Shown in pieces: positions 6,383-16,706 of a stretch of 64,000 nt of DNA. The position numbers and the translations under genes were made by a program. The stretch is from Rhodanobacter sp. C05. GTDB taxonomy: Bacteria; Pseudomonadota; Gammaproteobacteria; Xanthomonadales; Rhodanobacteraceae. Positions within the stretch are counted from its first letter, which is position 1. The number at the start of each line of letters is the position of its first letter. The notes beneath the pieces are model-generated. The model had not been told where the DNA came from, did not search any database, and saw only the letters and a list, made by a program, of their open reading frames with translations. Where the stretch lies: positions 62,001 to 126,000 of the forward strand of contig NZ_MUNQ01000018.1 in assembly GCF_002001165.1 (NCBI RefSeq), given 5' to 3'.

Positions 6383-7447
6383 ATGAGCATCATTCGGGAA
6401 AGCAGGCATTTCGAGGGCGCGCGCAGGGCCGCGCGGCCGATGGAGCGGATCAGCAACGTACGTGAAGCGGCCAAGGATTTCCGCCGCGATCTGCTGGCGC
6501 AATCGAAGGTGCTGTTCTACCGCTCGTTCGAACTGGTGCGGGTGCCGTATCCGACCAGGTACGCCTACCTCAATGCGTTCAGTTCGTTCTCGCCCTACCT
6601 GCACCTGGTCAACCGGCTGTTCGTGATCCAGTTCCAGTCGACCGACGGCATCAAGACCTTGCTGGCATCGCCATCGGACTGGGAGCATCAAAAGGAGACG
6701 CCGTTCTTCACCCGGCTTGGCAAGAAGAGCGGGCCGTTCGAGAGCGTGGTCGAACGCTTGATCTTCAGGAAGACCAACACCGTGCTGAATTGCCTCGCCA
6801 GCATCGGCCTGCGCCCTGCGGACATCGACTACATCACCTACGATCACCTGCACACGCAGCGGGTGACGCGCTGGCTGGGCGACGACGAACAGCCGGCGAT
6901 CTTTCCCAACGCGAAACTGCTGGTGATGCGCGAGGAGTGGGAGAGTGCACAGTCGCTGATCCCATGGCAGAACCAGTGGTATTGCCCCGATGGCATCAAG
7001 CGCGTGCCGTCCGACAAGGTGGTGCTGCTCGATAACGACGTATTCCTCGGCGAGGGCGTGGCGCTTGTGCGTACCAAGGGGCATACCGAGGGTAACCACT
7101 CGATCGTCGCCTCCACCGAAGGTGGCATCCATGTCACCAGCGAGAACGGCGTGTCGCTGGACGCATATGCACCGCTGCGTTCGCGCGTACCTGGCGTGGC
7201 CGAGTTCGCCCGTTATACCGGTGCGGAAGTGATCCTCAACGGCAATACCGTGGAATACGGCGTGGACCAGTACATCTCGATGATCCAGGAGAAGGAGATC
7301 GCCGGGCCGTCGCCCCGCTTCGATGGCTACCCGAACATGGCGCCAAGTTCAGAAGCGCAGGGGCACTGGTTGTTCCCTCGCACGCATCCCACAGTCAGCG
7401 TGGGCGATCTGCATTACGGCATGCTGCAGGCATCGGCGCGCGCGTAA
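6383..7447 (+). CDS. Metallo-beta-lactamase-fold protein with altered metal-binding motif
   Basis: A 354-residue cytoplasmic protein. The region at residues 150-160 (DYITYDHLHTQR) sits where the fold normally has HxHxDH. Here two His remain (155, 157), but the Asp-His pair is replaced by Gln159-Arg160. The second fold signature, GHTEGNHS with His234, is intact. This suggests a metallo-hydrolase relative with only part of the binuclear site, possibly mononuclear or non-catalytic. ATG 6383 has GGGAG seven bases upstream. The substrate is unknown, and the next gene (an SDR) follows after 33 bases, so the two may be cotranscribed. Confidence 0.65.
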   Translation: MSIIRESRHFEGARRAARPMERISNVREAAKDFRRDLLAQSKVLFYRSFELVRVPYPTRYAYLNAFSSFSPYLHLVNRLFVIQFQSTDGIKTLLASPSDWEHQKETPFFTRLGKKSGPFESVVERLIFRKTNTVLNCLASIGLRPADIDYITYDHLHTQRVTRWLGDDEQPAIFPNAKLLVMREEWESAQSLIPWQNQWYCPDGIKRVPSDKVVLLDNDVFLGEGVALVRTKGHTEGNHSIVASTEGGIHVTSENGVSLDAYAPLRSRVPGVAEFARYTGAEVILNGNTVEYGVDQYISMIQEKEIAGPSPRFDGYPNMAPSSEAQGHWLFPRTHPTVSVGDLHYGMLQASARA

Positions 7448-9056: not shown

Positions 9057-9204
9057 CAGTCTTGCTTTCCCGGCTACTTTCATCGAAGCAATACCGTAAG
9101 GCAGCGGATTCATCATGCTGACTCGATGACTAGGGATGGTTTTCCGGTCAACGAAAGCACGTGCGGTGAGACACTTCGATCTCAGATCAGCAACGAGCAA
9201 ACGA

Positions 9205-10026
9205 ATGAATGCAGCAAATTCCACTGGCAGCCTGGTCTGTGTAGGTCTGGGCATGACGCTAGGTTCTCATCTCGGCCCGCTGGCGCGCAGCCACATCGAA
9301 CAGTCCGATGTGGTGTTTGCCGGGCTCTCCGACGGCATCGTGGAGCTGTGGTTGCAGAAAATGCATCCCGATGTGCGCAGCCTCCAGCCGTACTACCACG
9401 AGGGTACGTCGCGCATGCAGACCTACCGGCAGATGGTGGAGGCCATTCTCACCGAGGTGCGTGCGGGCAAGAAGGTGTGCGGGGTGTTCTACGGCCATCC
9501 CGGCGTATTCGCCTGGGCGCCGCACAAGTCGATCGAGGTCGCCCGCAGCGAGGGTTATCCGGCGCATATGGAGCCGGGCATTTCCGCCGAGGATTGCCTG
9601 TACGCGGATCTCGGCATCGACCCGGGTCGCGTCGGCTGCCAGCACTACGAGGCCAGCCAGCTGCTGTTCTATCAGCGCCGGATCGACCCGACCGCCTATC
9701 TGGTGCTATGGCAGGTAGGCCTGGTCGGCGATCAGTCGCTGGCACGCTTCTCCACCGGCGCGGCCTACCGCCAGCTGCTGGTCGAGGTGCTGGCACGCGA
9801 CTACCCGCTGGAACATGAGGTGATCATCTATCGCACGGCGACGCTACCGATCCAGCAGGCACGGATCGAGCGGGTGGCGCTGGGTGCGCTGCCGCAGGCG
9901 GATATCGGCATGGCCGATACAGTGGTACTCCCGCCAGCGCGAACCATGCTGGTGGATCACGAGATGAGGACGAGGCTGGATGTGCTGGACAGAGCGATGT
10001 CGGATGCCGTTCGCGATGTCGGCTAA
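9205..10026 (+). CDS. Borosin-type peptide alpha-N-methyltransferase (split, no fused core)
   Basis: SAM-dependent enzyme of the tetrapyrrole-methylase fold, 273 residues, closely resembling the methyltransferase domain of borosin enzymes that methylate backbone amides of a precursor peptide. Visible blocks: VCVGLGMTLGS (11-21, SAM site), YYHEGTSRMQTY (63-74), GVFYGHPGVF (93-102), PGISAEDCLYADL (124-136) and YEAS (148-151). Tyr64, Arg70, Tyr74 and Tyr96 line up with the OphMA active-site residues as I recall them (offset two). The protein ends without a C-terminal core peptide, as in the split SonM/SonA type, and precursor-like genes follow. ATG 9205 puts the fold start at residue 9; an upstream ATG at 9136 is possible. 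The ribosome site is weak. Confidence 0.9.
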   Translation: MNAANSTGSLVCVGLGMTLGSHLGPLARSHIEQSDVVFAGLSDGIVELWLQKMHPDVRSLQPYYHEGTSRMQTYRQMVEAILTEVRAGKKVCGVFYGHPGVFAWAPHKSIEVARSEGYPAHMEPGISAEDCLYADLGIDPGRVGCQHYEASQLLFYQRRIDPTAYLVLWQVGLVGDQSLARFSTGAAYRQLLVEVLARDYPLEHEVIIYRTATLPIQQARIERVALGALPQADIGMADTVVLPPARTMLVDHEMRTRLDVLDRAMSDAVRDVG

Positions 10027-10244
10027 CACATCTGACGGAGAGTTTGGGTAGGCTGCCAGGACAGACGTGATAAAGGTTAAAGTGCTGCTCTGCCTTTGGT
10101 GGGGTTCCGAAGAGGCGAAAGCCAGTGTGGGAGAATCGGTTGGGGTGCTGGTTCGACAGGGACATCGAGTTGTTTTGTAAAACATTCCGGATCGCTGCGC
10201 GGAGCATGCGGTCTGATCCACAACCGACATAAGGGAATCATCAA

Positions 10245-10520
10245 ATGTTCGACGTCATCGATTTTCTTGAGAGCATGGGTCAGGACGCACAGCTGCGTTA
10301 CGCTTCTTCGGAGCACGTTGTTGCCACTTTGGCAGCCCAGCCAATAGATTCGAAGTTGCGCGATGCCATTCTTGCGAAGGATGCGCTGGGGCTTGGAGCG
10401 CTACTGGGGCAGGACTCATTCTGCTGCTATATCAATCCAGCCAAGGAAGATGAGGCCGGAGGCGACAGTAGCGAGAAGGACAAGGCCAAGAAAAAACCAG
10501 CACAGAGGCCCAAAAAGTGA
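10245..10520 (+). CDS. Putative split-borosin precursor peptide 1
   Basis: A 91-residue protein with a helical leader (VIDFLESMGQDAQLR at 4-18; AILAKD at 41-46; LLGQ at 53-56), then Cys60-Cys61 and the hydrophobic run Tyr-Ile before a Lys/Glu/Pro-rich tail. It shares this plan without gaps up to residue 61 with the products at 10695, 11696 and 14627. The leader resembles the LigA-like binding domain of split borosin precursors such as SonA. The likely core is around residues 58-68, by inference. AAGGGA lies eight bases before ATG 10245. It is the first gene after the methyltransferase (gap 218 bases). Confidence 0.78.
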   Translation: MFDVIDFLESMGQDAQLRYASSEHVVATLAAQPIDSKLRDAILAKDALGLGALLGQDSFCCYINPAKEDEAGGDSSEKDKAKKKPAQRPKK

Positions 10521-10588
10521 TTTTGATAACCGTAGTTCTCGCGCGGATGTGGTTGGCCCTGTAAATGATGTCTCTGTGGGTGCAAGGC

Positions 10589-10613
10589 GATGTAACAGGG
10601 GCCTTGTTACATC
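10589..10613. other. Hairpin between precursor genes 1 and 2
   Basis: The perfect 9-bp stem GATGTAACA / TGTTACATC with a 7-base GC-rich loop lies in the gap between the two precursor genes. No T-run follows. It could be an attenuator, an RNA-processing signal or an operator. Confidence 0.45.
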
Positions 10614-10694
10614 GAGTCTGGCAGGTACACCGATCACCGTGGTACGTGAAGCAAGCCAATTGTTGAAACCAATCAATTTAAATGAGGAATGCGA

Positions 10695-10934
10695 ATGTCT
10701 AACGTTATTGATTTCTTGGAGATGATGGGCCAGGACGCGCAGATGCGTAACGCCTCACGAAATGAAGTGAAGCTTGCTCTGGCCAATGCGCAGATTGCTC
10801 CAGAGTTGCAGACAGCGATTCTTGCCAAAGACCAGCCACAGCTTGAAACGTTACTGAGGCAGCGCGTTACCTGTTGCCTGCTTTTCTCAAATGAGGACCA
10901 AGATGATGAATCACCTCTTGAACAATGTGCTTGA
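10695..10934 (+). CDS. Putative split-borosin precursor peptide 2
   Basis: A 79-residue paralogue of the other precursors: NVIDFLEMMGQDAQMR leader, AILAKD at 41-46, Cys60-Cys61 followed by Leu-Leu-Phe and a short acidic tail with a further Cys near the end. LLGQ is changed to LLRQ and IDPEL to IAPEL. ATG 10695 is preceded by GAGGAA at six bases; an ATG two codons earlier would leave no room for the ribosome site. It has the shortest tail and most hydrophobic putative core (CCLLF) of the set. It should be methylated by the 9205 enzyme if the split-borosin reading is right. Confidence 0.75.
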   Translation: MSNVIDFLEMMGQDAQMRNASRNEVKLALANAQIAPELQTAILAKDQPQLETLLRQRVTCCLLFSNEDQDDESPLEQCA

Positions 10935-11017
10935 AGTCTGGAGGTTGATTTTTGTACATAGTGCAGTTTTGCCGACGCATCCGAAAGCAAAGTGTGTGGC
11001 TTAAGGTGTGGCGCGAA

Positions 11018-11037
11018 AAATAGCATCCATGCTATTT
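11018..11037. terminator. AT-rich hairpin after precursor 2
   Basis: The palindrome AAATAGCAT-CC-ATGCTATTT lies about 85 bases after the precursor 2 stop; as RNA, it would form a 7-bp stem with an ATCCAT loop. It is flanked by CGAA/TTCG, which may extend the stem. It may be a terminator or an operator. Confidence 0.35.
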
Positions 11038-11179
11038 CGGCACATCAAGTCGTGAATCGTTGTCGGCGCAAGGTTCAGGCTTTGCGTCCGACATGACGGA
11101 GAAAACAGATTTATAGCGCGCCTGGTCGTCGTTTTGACCATCTGCAGTATCGGAACAGCCAACTGTTAGGGGGCATGCA

Positions 11180-11473
11180 ATGACGGACGTCATCGATTTT
11201 CTGGAAAGGATAGGCCGGGACGCGCATTTGCGTCATGCATCGCACGATGAAATGGGGTTTGCGCTGTCCTAGTGCTGAGATTGATCCGGAGTTGCGCGTG
11301 GCAAGCCAGGCCAGGGATTAACAGGGGTTGCAGGCGTTGCTAGGACAGAATCCCTCTGCTGCCTGATCCATCCCGTCATGCCGGATGAGGAGATAGAAGA
11401 GTGTGACGGCAGTTGTAAACAGGGCAAGGACAAGAACGGTGATGAAAATCATGCTTCAGAGCTTGCTTCTTAA
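11180..11473 (+). pseudogene. Decayed split-borosin precursor gene
   Basis: The start ATG at 11180, with GTTAGGGGGC upstream, opens TDVIDFLERIGRDAHLRHAS, clearly the precursor leader. The frame then meets a TAG at residue 31 after an indel near 11268. Downstream homology continues in a shifted frame (AEIDPELRVA, then a TAA at the position of the residue after ARD, LQALLGQNP) and shifts again just before the Cys-Cys codons. The last frame still reads CCLIHP, EECDGSCK and ends with TAA at 11471. The tail EECDGSCK is shared with the product at 11696, so the two arose by duplication. Confidence 0.8.
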
Positions 11474-11695
11474 GCCCTGACAGTCACCGGTTAGTTCACG
11501 TTTCAGGTGGATAAGTTGGGCGCGTCAGCATTTTTCGCTGCCCATTTTCCAGCCGCGAACGCCGCGGTTTTGTCACTATCCGCCAATTCCGCGCGAAGAC
11601 TCCAGGCAAGTTGAAGGCTCCAAGTCTTTCGTCTTAGCTATTCGTTGTTCGTGATTTTAGCGGTACCAATATTATCAACGGAAAGGGGATGACCG

Positions 11696-11992
11696 ATGTT
11701 CGACGTGATCGATTTTCTTGAAACTGTCGGTCAGGACGCACAGTGGCGTCATGCTGACTCAGATGCACTGGCGCGCGCATTGACTGGGGTACAGGTTGAT
11801 CCGGAGTTACGCGTGGCGATTCTTGCCAGGGATGAGCATGGCTTGCAGGCGCTGCTGGGACAGGGCCCCTTCTGCTGTCTGATAAGCCCGGCCAAACCAA
11901 GCGAGGAACAGGAAGAGTGTGACGGGAGCTGCAAAGAGGGTGAGGAGAAGAAGGACGACAAGGAGAAGGAGAAGAGAAAGGATGGAGATTAA
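11696..11992 (+). CDS. Putative split-borosin precursor peptide 3
   Basis: A 98-residue precursor paralogue: VIDFLETVGQDAQWR leader, VDPELRVAILARD, LLGQGPF, Cys60-Cys61, Leu-Ile-Ser-Pro, then a tail with EECDGSC and a long Lys/Glu/Asp-rich end. AAGGGG lies about eight bases before ATG 11696. It precedes the first TPR-GGDEF gene by 52 bases on the same strand, probably as one transcript. The very charged tail may be a solubility tag or follower that is cleaved off; this is inference. Two extra Cys in the tail distinguish it from precursors 1 and 5. Confidence 0.78.
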   Translation: MFDVIDFLETVGQDAQWRHADSDALARALTGVQVDPELRVAILARDEHGLQALLGQGPFCCLISPAKPSEEQEECDGSCKEGEEKKDDKEKEKRKDGD

Positions 11993-12044
11993 AGACCAGG
12001 CTTCGCGACTTGCCGTTCCTGCGCCTGCGTCCACTGACTAGCTC

Positions 12045-13904
12045 ATGGACCAAGCGGGCAGGTACAGGTTGGTATTCAGGTGCTGCGCGTTTCTGCTTTT
12101 ATTTGTAGCGGGCGCGGTTGCTGCGACTGCGCCCGTATCCAACGATCCTGCGCAATTGCTAAGACAAGCTGAAAACGTCGAGCCCTCCAATCATGCTGTG
12201 TTCGACGAGCTGATGGGTCGACTCGACAAGGTCGCGACGAGGCTCTCGCCGCAACAGAAGTTGCATCATCGCTACCTCCTGGCTCGGCAGATCGCTTTTG
12301 CGGGCAATTACGCCGCTGCTTTGCCGTCGTTGACAGCGCTTGCCGATCAAACTGCGGATCCCGTTCTAGCGTTTCGCGCCAGCGCCAACGTGATCGACCT
12401 GTTGGTAGCCCAATCCCGCTATGAGGAGGCCTTTGCCAGGCTCAATCCATTCCTCGACCAGTTGCCACAAATAAAGGAAAACGACGTTCGCATCCAAGGT
12501 CTCACCGCCACGGCGCAGTTGTACACCGAGGCCGGTCAATACGATGTGTCAATGAGTTATGCCGATCAATTGATCAAGGAAAGCACTGACGCCCAAAGTG
12601 CATGCAGAGGTTGGTTCTTGAAGTCGGATGCGCTGTTTGAAAGTGGCAACGCACAGTTGCCCGCCAAACAGCTTCACGATGGTACGGAGGCATGCGAAAA
12701 GGCGGGTGACACACTGTTTTCTCTCAGTTTTCAATATTTGCTGGCGGGTTTTGACATGCGACAGGGTCGGCCTGAGTCGGCCATCCGCTTGCTGCAAGCG
12801 AACTACCCCAAGGTTCTGCTAGCAGGTTTTCCGCCCCAGGTTTCGGAGTTCGAGGCTACGCTGGCCAGGGCTTACTGGTCGGAGGGTGATTTTGCTTCGG
12901 CGACGAAATTTGCCAACGACGCCTTGGCTACCAATGCCAACAGACCATATTCGGAGTCGACGGCCAACGCCTATCAAGTGCTTTACGAAGTCGACAAGAA
13001 AGCTGGCGACAGCAATGGCGCCCTCGCAAACCTCGAAAAATATGTCGTTGCCCACGATGGCTACCTGAGTCGACTCAGCGCGAAGGCGCTTGCCTATCAG
13101 ATCGTCAAGCAGCAGGTACTGGCGAAAAAGCTGCAGATTGAAAGCCTGGACAAGAAGAACAAGATTCTCACCCTGCAAGGCGAGCTGGATCACAAGGCGG
13201 CGGTAACCAGCCGTCTGTATATCGTGCTTCTGCTGATGGTGTTGGCAACGATTGCCCTGTGGACTTACCGGATCAAGCGCTCGCAGCTGCGCTTCATGAA
13301 ACTGGCGCGGCGCGATGGCCTCACCGGCATCTTCAACCGGCAGCATTTCGTCAACGAGGCCGAGCTGCTGTTGCAGTACTGCCGGAAATCATCGCGCGAC
13401 GCCTGTCTGGTGCTGATCGATCTGGACCATTTCAAGGCTGTCAACGATACCCATGGCCATGCGGTGGGCGACCGCGTGCTGCAGCGTGCCGTCGAGGCCT
13501 GCAAGACCTGCCTGCGCTCGACCGATATCTTCGGTCGCCTCGGTGGCGAGGAGTTCGGCATCCTGCTGCCCGAGTGCACGCTGGGGCAGGTCGTCGTCCG
13601 CGCCGAGCAGATCCGCCTGGCGATTGCCACGGCTGCTACCGGCGAGAATGCTCCCGGTATCCCCATCTCGGCCAGCTTTGGCGCCTCCAGTGTGGTGCAT
13701 TCCGGCTACGAATTGCGCCAGCTTATGATCCATGCCGACGCAGCGCTGTACCGGGCCAAGCGCGAAGGCCGCAATCGGGTCAACGTGGTCGTCCATCCGG
13801 GATTTGATGATTCGATGCCCCGGGATGATTTGCTGGGTGGCGATGCGCATGTGCTGCAAGATGCTTCGATGTTCAGGTCCGGCGATGGGCAGGCAGACGG
13901 ATGA
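12045..13904 (+). CDS. Membrane diguanylate cyclase with periplasmic TPR-like sensor, copy 1
   Basis: Makes c-di-GMP from two GTP. The 619-residue protein has an N-terminal signal sequence (to about residue 27), a helical-repeat region of TPR type (about 30-350), a coiled stretch (350-385), one transmembrane helix (about 388-408) and a GGDEF domain. The active site is GGEEF at 500-504, with an RxxD inhibitory site (RSTD, 491-494) five residues before it, so the enzyme should be active and product-inhibited. The sensor part is predicted to face the periplasm. It follows a precursor gene by 52 bases, and its stop codon overlaps a remnant methyltransferase start at 13901. A 65% or better paralogue lies at 14928. 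Confidence 0.9.
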
Positions 13905-13951
13905 AGGTAACAAGTTCCACTGTCAGCGTGGTCTGTTTACGCCTGGGCCTG
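13901..13951 (+). pseudogene. Remnant 5' end of a second borosin-type methyltransferase gene
   Basis: The 51 bases starting at ATG 13901 match the first 51 bases of the methyltransferase gene at 9205 in 41 positions without a gap, including the codons for Ser-Thr, Val-Cys and Leu-Gly. The frame stops at codon 21, and I see no further similarity. The ATG overlaps the stop of the diguanylate cyclase gene (ATGA), a normal coupled arrangement. This suggests that a complete methyltransferase gene once followed the cyclase. Confidence 0.65.
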
Positions 13952-14045
13952 TTAAGGTGGTAATCCTTCCGGTATGTGCTTTGAAGTCCGATTCCGAGAT
14001 CCGCGCTTGGCTTGCCGCGCAGGACTTGGCGATGACTGCCGAAGC

Positions 14046-14591
14046 ATGACGGGCATGGCGGATATCATAGCGGCGGCATTCGAGTTTGAGACAGAGCGGC
14101 TGCAGCTGCGCCTTCTGGCTGCTCGCGATGAGGCCTTGTTTTGCGGGCTATATACAGATCCCGAAACCATGCGTTTCATCGGGCAACCGCTAACTGCGGG
14201 GCAGGCGGCAAGATACTTTCAAAGAGCCATGGCCGGGATGCATCAACAGCCATGCAAGTGGTTGTATCTGGCGATATTGGAAAAAGAATCGGGCCAGCCC
14301 TTGGGTGTCTGTGGTGTGCCACAATTCGACAAGGACGCCACCAGACTGGAGGTTGGCTTAGTATTGGCAACCGAGGCTCGTTCACGAGGGTACGCGCGGG
14401 AAGGGTTGGCGGCGCTGGTGAAGAGAGTTTTTGAAGTGTCGTCAGTCGTGGAGATATGGGCACAATTTTCAACGGAACATGTGGCAGCCGAGCGACTGGT
14501 TATCGACATTGGGTTTAGCAGTTGCACTTATGCACCAATTGAACCAGGGTTTTTGTCAAAGCGTATATGGTCGATTCCTCGATCATCGTGA
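14046..14591 (+). CDS. GNAT-family N-acetyltransferase, RimJ/RimL-like
   Basis: Acetyl-CoA-dependent acetyltransferase, 181 residues. It has the RimJ/L N-terminus ETERLQLRLLAARDEALF, a strand 4 followed by the acetyl-CoA site GYAREGLAAL (in place of Q/RxxGxG/A) and the late IGF motif. It sits between the first cyclase and the fourth intact precursor gene, on the same strand. Family members acetylate protein N-termini, antibiotics or small molecules, so it could either modify the peptide or be a passenger that replaced a methyltransferase. ATG 14046 was chosen at the start of the conserved region; ATG 14055 is also possible. Base composition is less GC-rich than the flanks. Confidence 0.8.
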   Translation: MTGMADIIAAAFEFETERLQLRLLAARDEALFCGLYTDPETMRFIGQPLTAGQAARYFQRAMAGMHQQPCKWLYLAILEKESGQPLGVCGVPQFDKDATRLEVGLVLATEARSRGYAREGLAALVKRVFEVSSVVEIWAQFSTEHVAAERLVIDIGFSSCTYAPIEPGFLSKRIWSIPRSS

Positions 14592-14626
14592 TGGGTCATC
14601 AAAAAGCAAACGTCAGGGGGAACGCT

Positions 14627-14923
14627 ATGTCGAATGTGATCGATTTTCTGGAAAGAATGGGTCAGGACGCGAAATTACGTCATGCTTCGCAAAACGAAGT
14701 GGAACTCGCATTGGCGAGTGAGCAGATTGATCCAGAGCTGCATGCTGCGATCCTTGCCAAGGATCAACGGTGGATCGAGGGATTGTTGGGGCAAGGTAAT
14801 GTCTGCTGCATGTTGATGCCTAGCAAGGAAGAGGACGATGAAGATGCCGAAGAGAGTCCGTCGAAAGAGGATGAAGAGGTAACTTCGCAATCGGCGTTTT
14901 TTACTGTGGCATCGGTGGGATAG
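14627..14923 (+). CDS. Putative split-borosin precursor peptide 4
   Basis: A 98-residue precursor paralogue: NVIDFLERMGQDAKLR leader, IDPELHAAILAKD, LLGQGNV, Cys60-Cys61, Met-Leu-Met-Pro, a long acidic tail, and a more hydrophobic final segment (SAFFTVASVG) not seen in the others. AGGGGG lies seven bases before ATG 14627. The cyclase gene at 14928 begins four bases after the stop, so precursor and cyclase are tightly coupled. This mirrors the precursor 3-cyclase pair at 11696-13904. Confidence 0.78.
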   Translation: MSNVIDFLERMGQDAKLRHASQNEVELALASEQIDPELHAAILAKDQRWIEGLLGQGNVCCMLMPSKEEDDEDAEESPSKEDEEVTSQSAFFTVASVG

Positions 14924-14927
14924 TTCG

Positions 14928-16706
14928 ATGTTTCTAATGGGCAAGCGGTGCTGGGCGTATTTCGCTGGGTGGACCTTGCTCATAATATTCCATGTAGGCA
15001 CGGCTGCTGCGGCCGTGCCTACAGCGAGTGACCCTGCTCAGCTGCTCAGACAGGCTGATACTCTTAAAACAACAAACCATGCTGAATTTGCTGCACTTAT
15101 ACACAAGCTGGGTGAGGACACTGCAAAACTATCTTCGGAGCAACAGCTTTATCTGCGCTATCTCAACGCGTGGGAAATTGCCTATCGAGGCGACTATGGT
15201 GGAGCAATTCCGCTGCTGAATACTGTCATCGATAAATCCACTGATGCCACATTGCGCTTTCGAGCGGGCGCTACAGTGGTGAATATGCTGGGAATCGTAT
15301 CCCGCTATGAGGAGGCGTTCGAGCGATTGAGCCAATTGCTCGACCAGCTACCACAGGTGACCGACAAGGTTGCACTCACGCAAGGTTTGAGTGTTGTGGC
15401 GCAGCTATACATTGAGGCTGGACAATATGATCTGGCGATGAGTTATGCAGATCAATTGATCAGGGAAAGCCCTACTTCAGACAGTGTCTGTCGTGGACGC
15501 TATCTAAATCTCGAGGCGTTTTTCAGGAGCAATAAACTAGAGGCGCCTGGGAAGCAATTCCAAGATGGCATTGATGCTTGTGGCGAATCAGTCTTCGCCA
15601 ACGGTATTCGCTATTTTGTGGCCAGCCTAGACATCCAACAAGGTCGGCCGGTAGATGCAATCAAGTTATTGCAGAAGAATTACGTGGAAGTCCAGCGCGC
15701 CCATTATCCACCTTTGATTGCTGAGTTCAATGCATCATTGGCGCAGGCCTATTGGAAGGAAGGTGATCTCGCCTTGTCGCAACAGTTCGCTTTGGACACT
15801 GTAAACAACAGCATCAAGGGCGAATACACGGAATCACTAACGATTGCTTACGAGCTGCTCTATTTGATCGCTCAAAAACAGGGAGATATGGGGACTGCAC
15901 TCGCCTATCACGAAAAGTATATGGCTGCTGACAAAGGATATCTGACTGTAATCAGTGCAAAGGCGCTGGCATATCAGACTGTCAAGCAGCAGGTACTGGC
16001 GAAAAAACTTCAGATCGAGACACTGAACAAGCAGAACCAGATACTCCAGTTGCAGGAGAAGCTCGCCAAGAAGGCAGCGGTTACCAGCCGGTTGTATATC
16101 ATCCTGCTGCTGGTCGTACTGGCGTCGATCGCGATGTGGACGTACCGGATCAAGCGTTCGCAACTGAGTTTCATGAGACTGGCGCGACGAGACGGCCTCA
16201 CCGGTATCTTCAACCGGCAGCATTTCGTCAGCGAAGCCGAGTTGCAACTGCAGTACTGTCGCAAGTCATCGCGCGACGCCTGCCTGGTGCTGATCGACCT
16301 TGATCACTTCAAGGCGGTCAACGACAACCACGGTCATGCGGTTGGCGATCGCGTGTTGAAGCGTGCTGTCGAGACCTGCCAGACGCATCTGCGTTCGACC
16401 GACATCTTCGGCCGCCTCGGTGGTGAGGAATTCGGTATCCTGCTGCCCGAATGCACACTGGAGCTGGCGCTTGGCCGGGCCGAGCAGATCCGTCAGGCCA
16501 TCGCGACAGCTGCCTCTGGCGAGGAGGTTCCCGGCGTTCCGGTGTCCGCCAGCTTCGGCATTGCCAGCGTGATCCACTCCGGCTACGAATTGCGCCAGTT
16601 GCTTATCCATGCCGACGAAGCGCTGTACCAGGCCAAGCGTGAGGGTCGCAATCGGGTCAGTGTCAGTGTCAGCGATACGCAGGAAGCGTGCTTGAAGACG
16701 GGCTGA
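14928..16706 (+). CDS. Membrane diguanylate cyclase with periplasmic TPR-like sensor, copy 2
   Basis: Paralogue of the 12045 gene with the same order: signal sequence (to about residue 28), TPR-like repeats, transmembrane helix (about 388-407) and GGDEF domain. GGEEF is at 498-502 and RSTD at 489-492. The GGDEF half is roughly 85% identical to copy 1, whereas the sensor half is only about half identical by eye, so the sensor has diverged faster. The first two thirds are AT-richer than the last third. It starts four bases after precursor 4; an in-frame ATG three codons later is also possible. It probably makes c-di-GMP in response to a periplasmic ligand, which is unknown. Confidence 0.9.
   Translation: MFLMGKRCWAYFAGWTLLIIFHVGTAAAAVPTASDPAQLLRQADTLKTTNHAEFAALIHKLGEDTAKLSSEQQLYLRYLNAWEIAYRGDYGGAIPLLNTVIDKSTDATLRFRAGATVVNMLGIVSRYEEAFERLSQLLDQLPQVTDKVALTQGLSVVAQLYIEAGQYDLAMSYADQLIRESPTSDSVCRGRYLNLEAFFRSNKLEAPGKQFQDGIDACGESVFANGIRYFVASLDIQQGRPVDAIKLLQKNYVEVQRAHYPPLIAEFNASLAQAYWKEGDLALSQQFALDTVNNSIKGEYTESLTIAYELLYLIAQKQGDMGTALAYHEKYMAADKGYLTVISAKALAYQTVKQQVLAKKLQIETLNKQNQILQLQEKLAKKAAVTSRLYIILLLVVLASIAMWTYRIKRSQLSFMRLARRDGLTGIFNRQHFVSEAELQLQYCRKSSRDACLVLIDLDHFKAVNDNHGHAVGDRVLKRAVETCQTHLRSTDIFGRLGGEEFGILLPECTLELALGRAEQIRQAIATAASGEEVPGVPVSASFGIASVIHSGYELRQLLIHADEALYQAKREGRNRVSVSVSDTQEACLKTG

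Follow-up and report, generated by a model that had tools for sequence, protein, structure and literature searches.

A split borosin cluster in Rhodanobacter sp. C05 and the pairing of its precursor genes with genes for TPR-GGDEF sensors

The methyltransferase gene

The stretch of DNA analysed in the present study, referred to as the window, comprises 64,000 nucleotides (nt) within the 4.25-Mb genome of the soil bacterium Rhodanobacter sp. C05 (contig NZ_MUNQ01000018.1, positions 62,001 to 126,000). It holds a locus that, judged by its sequence, is close to certain to be a split borosin cluster, in which a gene for a SonM-type peptide backbone (alpha-N) methyltransferase is followed on the same strand by small precursor genes and by two genes for membrane proteins with tetratricopeptide repeat (TPR) and GGDEF domains, here termed sensors. 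The methyltransferase, a protein of 273 residues, is encoded at 9205..10026 (+), in an open reading frame (ORF) that the ORF program began at 9136. An earlier note on this DNA had called it a borosin backbone N-methyltransferase, and this assignment is borne out by a phmmer comparison with PDB sequences, in which the enzyme matched SonM (7ltc) at 1.9e-77 and the OphMA group at approximately 1e-46. In addition, its residues Y64, R70, Y74 and Y96 align with Y58, R67, Y71 and Y93 of SonM, whose roles have been tested by mutation (PMC8429565), and none of the four varies when the enzyme is aligned with 13 relatives (14 sequences).

We also considered that the enzyme might be a tetrapyrrole methylase with no relation to the small genes, as Pfam assigns the protein to the superfamily model TP_methylase alone (4.7e-18) and NCBIfam returns weak precorrin and YabN matches. 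These NCBIfam matches lie far below their cut-offs, however, and the best tetrapyrrole methylase in the PDB comparison, a precorrin-2 methylase, reached just 0.054, against 1.9e-77 for SonM, so that the enzyme is not placed firmly among cobalamin or siroheme methylases. As genes with SonA-like leaders also adjoin it, we rejected this identity and regard it as exceedingly improbable.

The enzyme carries no fused core or precursor, since its ORF ends at 10026 and the match with SonM extends to residue 258, and it is the single gene of its kind in the genome. Six related genomes (G014, G020, G021, G024, G035 and G038) have a second copy some 40–65 kb from the first, on the opposite strand and with its own precursor and sensor.

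Precursor genes and their leaders

Four intact precursor genes and one decayed copy lie behind the enzyme gene, all on the same strand, and were identified by a profile built from 15 sequences, the intact ones also as ORFs. Precursor 1 (10245..10520, 91 residues, 128 bits) has the core region DSFCCYINPAKED, and precursor 2 (10689..10934, 120 bits; 81 residues, or 79 when started at 10695) the core region VTCCLLFSNED; neither has a sensor gene of its own here, and in two other loci (L033 and L034) a precursor with a leader of precursor 1's kind is followed by one. The decayed copy (approximately 11180..11475) has stops in all three frames, is recognizable in pieces from two of them, and scores 56 bits with three internal stops. 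From this copy into precursor 3 (11180–11869), the sequence shows a similarity of 72.6% over 719 nt to a part of locus L049 that carries intact precursors. Precursor 3 (11696..11992, 98 residues, 129 bits), in which the core region GPFCCLISPAKP is followed by CDGSCK and a charged tail, is paired with sensor 1, and precursor 4 (14627..14923, 98 residues, 144 bits), with the core region GNVCCMLMPSKEE, is paired with sensor 2. For precursor 4 a longer ORF from 14567 exists, but the purine-rich sequence caggggg stands just 5' of 14627, the position from which all relatives align. When the whole genome was searched with the profile, these five genes alone were returned (six rows, the decayed copy accounting for two), in agreement with the earlier count of four intact genes and one decayed.

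The Cys-Cys pair previously noticed in these proteins is indeed present, at approximately residues 60–61, in all four intact precursors, and is kept in a fragment of the decayed one. Among 162 scored distinct precursors of relatives, the core region has Cys-Cys in 44, any Cys in 92 and none in 70. Pfam and NCBIfam hold no curated family model for these precursors, and two Pfam matches of 0.03 are attributable to chance.

The precursor leader resembles the borosin-binding domain of SonA, as judged by profile and predicted fold. SonA ranked first when the precursor profile was compared with PDB sequences (7e-4), and a single precursor gave 0.89, which is not significant. The model of precursor 4 predicts five helices up to residue 54 and then a disordered tail, and the leader of SonA is a five-helix borosin-binding domain (PMC8429565). 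In a Foldseek search with this model SonA chains led the list, with target template modelling (TM) scores of 0.63–0.77 but with E values of 1.4 or worse for this small domain.

SonA is methylated at L63 and I65 (PMC8429565). The residue aligned with position 65 of SonA is proline in 53 of 55 sequences, and position 63 is methylatable in most, so that the methylation pattern must differ from that of SonA and would be expected at approximately residues 59–64, over the Cys-Cys pair. Among the relatives, two precursors (L039:4354–4749(+) and L041:3674–4231(+)) have two core-like stretches, one (L168:11328–11774(+)) a repeated acidic unit in its tail and one (L044:7364–7771(+)) a long Asp-Lys run.

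With its separate methyltransferase and precursors, homologous enzyme, identical catalytic residues, and a leader of the borosin-binding fold with the core behind it, the locus is like the SonM/SonA system of Shewanella oneidensis (PMC8429565), and the earlier description of it as a split system without a fused core stands. It differs in having four intact precursors rather than one, and the window precursors differ from SonA in the Cys-Cys of the core, the proline in place of the methylated I65 and the long charged tail. Borosins have been classified into types 0–XI (PMC11395268), and class 3 of that paper, with leader and core in one protein and a separate methyltransferase, fits the window. 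Backbone-methylated peptides, encoded by several small precursor genes, are the probable product of this cluster.

TPR-GGDEF sensor genes

The unit was previously taken to extend over 9205..14923, which overlooked the TPR-GGDEF genes. Sensor 1 (12045..13904 (+)) begins 52 nt past the stop of precursor 3, and sensor 2 (14928..16706 (+)) begins 4 nt past the stop of precursor 4; with these genes directly 3' of precursors 3 and 4, the unit ends at 16706 and not at 14923. Sensor 1 has an N-terminal hydrophobic segment (residues 9–27), a TPR domain recognized by Pfam TPR models, a membrane helix (387–405) and a GGDEF domain (Pfam 3.4e-41) with the motif GGEEF, and its structural model has a predicted local distance difference test (pLDDT) score of 87. 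Sensor 2 has the same architecture (GGDEF 2.8e-43, with TPR models also matched), and its TPR part is 51% identical to that of sensor 1. A search of the window's genome with the TPR part gave two matches, both in this locus, and between 10027 and 12044 we found nothing convincing as the remnant of a lost sensor (best match 3e-4 over 24 residues).

Among 48 aligned sensors, hydrophobic segments flank the TPR domain in 40, the second segment alone being present in eight alignment entries, and the GGEEF motif is intact in 47. The window sensors look able to make cyclic di-GMP (c-di-GMP). The main text of PMC8429565 does not use the words GGDEF or TPR, whereas the window unit has two TPR-GGDEF genes.

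Linkage of enzyme, precursor and sensor in relatives

This association was followed in several sets of relatives. In a survey of 100 genomes, including that of the window, which are related to one another and so do not give independent counts, the enzyme was present in 71 and the sensor in 72; 70 had both and 27 neither, two of the latter belonging to the same genus. One genome (G089) had the enzyme alone and two (G094 and G099) the sensor alone. The lack of a sensor in G089 is uncertain, because the enzyme lies at a contig end and in distant relatives (L191, L195 and L196) the sensor lies on that side. Of 80 named loci (the best 80 of 558 relatives listed, the nearest being mostly Rhodanobacter and Dyella), 77 have a sensor; in the remaining three the sequence stops at the end of the enzyme or not more than 130 nt past it. 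In all, 87 of the 89 sensors in this set were paired with a precursor. Twelve distant pieces included ten with the enzyme, and nine of these had a TPR match (L194 did not).

In 61 loci read in detail (60 fetched, plus the window) a sensor was present every time, and 74 of their 79 sensors had a precursor directly upstream. The occurrence of several precursors in one locus, which the earlier note had singled out, is true of the window but is not special within the order, as two or more precursors were counted in 25 of the 58 loci in which any was detected, the window being included together with its decayed copy. One locus (L141, Luteibacter sp. dw_328) has seven precursor matches and a single sensor match.

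The other neighbours recur far less regularly. Direct searches with six further genes of the window, made in 141 loci, found each of them in between 4 and 35. These loci overlap, since the enzyme fragment was located in 124 of them and amounts to 99 distinct fragments, 21 of which are shared by the two sets of loci. No other neighbour thus comes near the TPR-GGDEF partners in constancy, and, judged by sequence, it is nearly certain that these partners are part of the borosin cluster.

The neighbourhood of the sensors was then counted for 119 of 135 sensor rows (those of at least 77 bits) against 128 of 132 precursor rows (two fragments and the two rows that stem from the decayed window copy being set aside) and the full set of 95 enzyme rows. 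A precursor lay not more than 400 nt upstream in 104 cases and the enzyme within 8 kb in 96; 13 sensors had a precursor but no enzyme nearby, and ten had neither, two of these being short partial matches.

Precursors and sensors also diverge together. In the swap test, which the 16 loci with two pairs alone enter, the rank correlation between precursor and sensor distances was 0.677, and 1000 trials in which partners were swapped inside loci gave 0.307 on average and never more than 0.621. The leader alone (0.623) and the core plus tail (0.62) both gave values above those of all swaps.

These data bear on the possibility that the cell secretes the borosins as conventional products with an antibacterial or metal-binding action, and that the TPR-GGDEF proteins do no more than control or sense borosin production and do not themselves bind the peptide. 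Enzymes of c-di-GMP metabolism are common regulators, most of the sensors share the cluster of the enzyme (the 96 of 119 noted above), and the four window cores have Cys-Cys, all of which would be in keeping with such a role. On the other hand, sensors also accompany precursors away from the enzyme (13 of 119), there is an individual sensor for each module rather than one for each cluster, the partners diverge together, the core region lacks any Cys in 70 of 162 precursors, and no exporter is conserved among the neighbours searched, and on balance we consider a secreted product of this kind doubtful.

Loci outside the order and other architectures

The pairing extends to loci outside the order, where nine of 16 have a TPR-GGDEF gene (L200–L208), three have a gene for a TPR-hybrid histidine kinase (L209–L211) and four have neither (L185–L187 and L212). 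One of the TPR-GGDEF loci (L202) has its enzyme gene on the opposite strand, and in two (L204 and L205) the profile detected no precursor. In genome G713 (L201:5555–8474(-)) close orthologues of SonM (1.5e-138) and SonA (6.7e-26) are followed, directly after the latter, by a TPR-GGDEF gene, and the second enzyme locus of this genome (L200) has a TPR-GGDEF gene too. The three kinase genes (L209:9064–11919(+), L210:8871–12128(+) and L211:1251–4499(+)) encode TPR and hybrid histidine kinase domains and stand directly after a precursor-like gene beside the enzyme, their TPR part being recognized by Pfam alone in L209 and at 31–34 bits in L210 and L211. The constant unit is thus the precursor with its TPR sensor, and the output part can change.

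In genome G087 a single frame of 863 residues (L188:2276–4864(+)) comprises TPR, GGDEF and methyltransferase, with a SonA-like precursor at 2017–2337 in front of it. This fusion may be the GGDEF-bearing type of PMC11395268, whose legend to figure 1 mentions such a domain; the passages of that paper available give no function for the GGDEF part. A different architecture is seen in genome G391, where a frame of 1177 residues (L212:3843–7373(-)) begins close to the methyltransferase domain and matches nothing else in Pfam.

Other genes of the window

A GNAT acetyltransferase gene (13974–14591 (+)) stands between the two precursor-sensor modules of the window and was found in 29 of the 141 loci. 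The gene at 6383–7447 (+) has no Pfam match at E 1 and weakly resembles quorum-quenching lactonases, its match with the NCBIfam model YtnP (7.8e-11) falling far short of the cut-off; it lies beside the enzyme in just four of the 141 loci. A phage origin was rejected, as a tblastn search of phage records with precursor 4 as the sole query returned nothing and a viral fold library returned GGDEF and generic repeat proteins among the 50 matches listed.

A possible ligand role for the borosin peptides

The pairing with sensors suggests that such borosin peptides may act as signals. The kind of enzyme, the kind of leader, the almost exclusive linkage of precursor and sensor, their inheritance together, the intact GGEEF motif and the hydrophobic segments flanking the TPR domain can all be read from the sequences, and from these we infer the following course of events. 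In each precursor, one SonM-type enzyme would methylate backbone amides of the short core that follows the five helices of the leader, most likely at approximately residues 59–64 and before the conserved proline, and a protease would then free a small methylated peptide. After crossing to the periplasm, the peptide would be bound by the predicted periplasmic TPR domain of the partner TPR-membrane-GGDEF protein, and its binding would alter diguanylate cyclase activity and with it the level of c-di-GMP. In our judgement there is about an even chance that the borosin peptides are in this way ligands of dedicated membrane sensors and that the split borosin cluster is built of peptide-sensor modules; it is the best single account of the pairing, of the pairs found away from the enzyme, of the exchange of output, of the fusion and of some resemblance of the TPR domain to the Rap pheromone receptors.

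As to this resemblance, comparison of the TPR domain with Rap structures (PDB 4i9c, 4gyo and 8rsv), within the 1000 best chains of Foldseek, gave identities of 9–13% and root mean square deviations (rmsd) of 4.3–4.8 Å. The adjacency of precursor gene and TPR sensor gene is that of Rap/RRNPP systems (the 74 of 79 sensors mentioned above). Rap proteins are soluble receptors of the cytoplasm with outputs of other kinds, whereas the window sensors have a membrane-bound TPR domain that is predicted to lie outside the cytoplasm and would drive a GGDEF domain. Given the hydrophobic segments at 9–27 and 387–405 of sensor 1, these proteins may work like Rap, yet we do not class them as Rap/RRNPP receptors.

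A second alternative is that the whole precursor protein, rather than a released peptide, binds the sensor as a protein switch whose activity is set by methylation. A precedent is found in Vibrio vulnificus, where RcbA relieves the TPR-inhibited diguanylate cyclase RcbB, which is encoded beside it (PMC12282931); like the window sensors, RcbB has an N-terminal TPR and a C-terminal GGDEF domain, and its activity is set by an adjacent partner gene. The partner there is a TPR protein and not a peptide precursor, and the abstract of PMC12282931 mentions no methyltransferase. The leaders, moreover, diverge with the sensors as much as the core and tail do, and in L188 methyltransferase and GGDEF are joined in one chain. 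The hydrophobic segments flanking the TPR domain in 40 of 48 sensors would, however, place this domain across the membrane from a precursor without a signal sequence, if the usual topology holds, and we regard a switch of this type as unlikely.

Several observations weigh against the released peptide as ligand. The precursors have no obvious Sec signal, and no exporter or protease gene is conserved among the neighbours (six window genes, 141 overlapping loci), which leaves the route from cytoplasm to periplasm unexplained. Around eight sensors of the same TPR family (L171–L178, the remainder of the ten without either partner), the 8 kb of sequence inspected contains neither precursor nor enzyme, window precursors 1 and 2 have no sensor of their own, and the four loci outside the order with neither kind of sensor gene are a quarter of the 16. 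Joint duplication of neighbours is sufficient to account for the co-divergence, which thus shows that the pairs stay together and not that they bind. The TPR similarity is also generic, with kinesin light chain close behind RapF (1.2e-4), the rmsd against Rap is 4.3–4.8 Å within the 1000 best chains compared, and the E values of the SonA fold match are 1.4 or worse.

A more specific form of the ligand proposal, which we put forward tentatively and think rather less probable, is that bacterial borosins are peptide pheromones, in which the methylated core would be stable and would cross the inner membrane without an exporter, each precursor having its own Rap-like TPR receptor on the far side of that membrane with an exchangeable output, either diguanylate cyclase or hybrid histidine kinase. 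Membrane permeability is among the effects of backbone methylation named in PMC8429565.

Significance

Split borosins are already known, as is the GGDEF domain from the legend of the borosin classification figure (PMC11395268), and we do not claim the link between GGDEF and borosins as unpublished. The passages of the borosin papers available state no function for bacterial split borosins, a statement that applies to those passages and not to all papers. In this context, the finding that a dedicated membrane sensor follows the precursor in nearly every case, with an output part that changes while precursor and TPR domain stay, provides a concrete and testable signalling hypothesis. If the pheromone proposal were true, paralogous modules under one methyltransferase would amount to several private channels in one cell. 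If the borosin peptides are indeed ligands of these sensors, a ribosomally made and modified peptide would join the signals that act on c-di-GMP, and backbone N-methylation would gain a use in bacteria.

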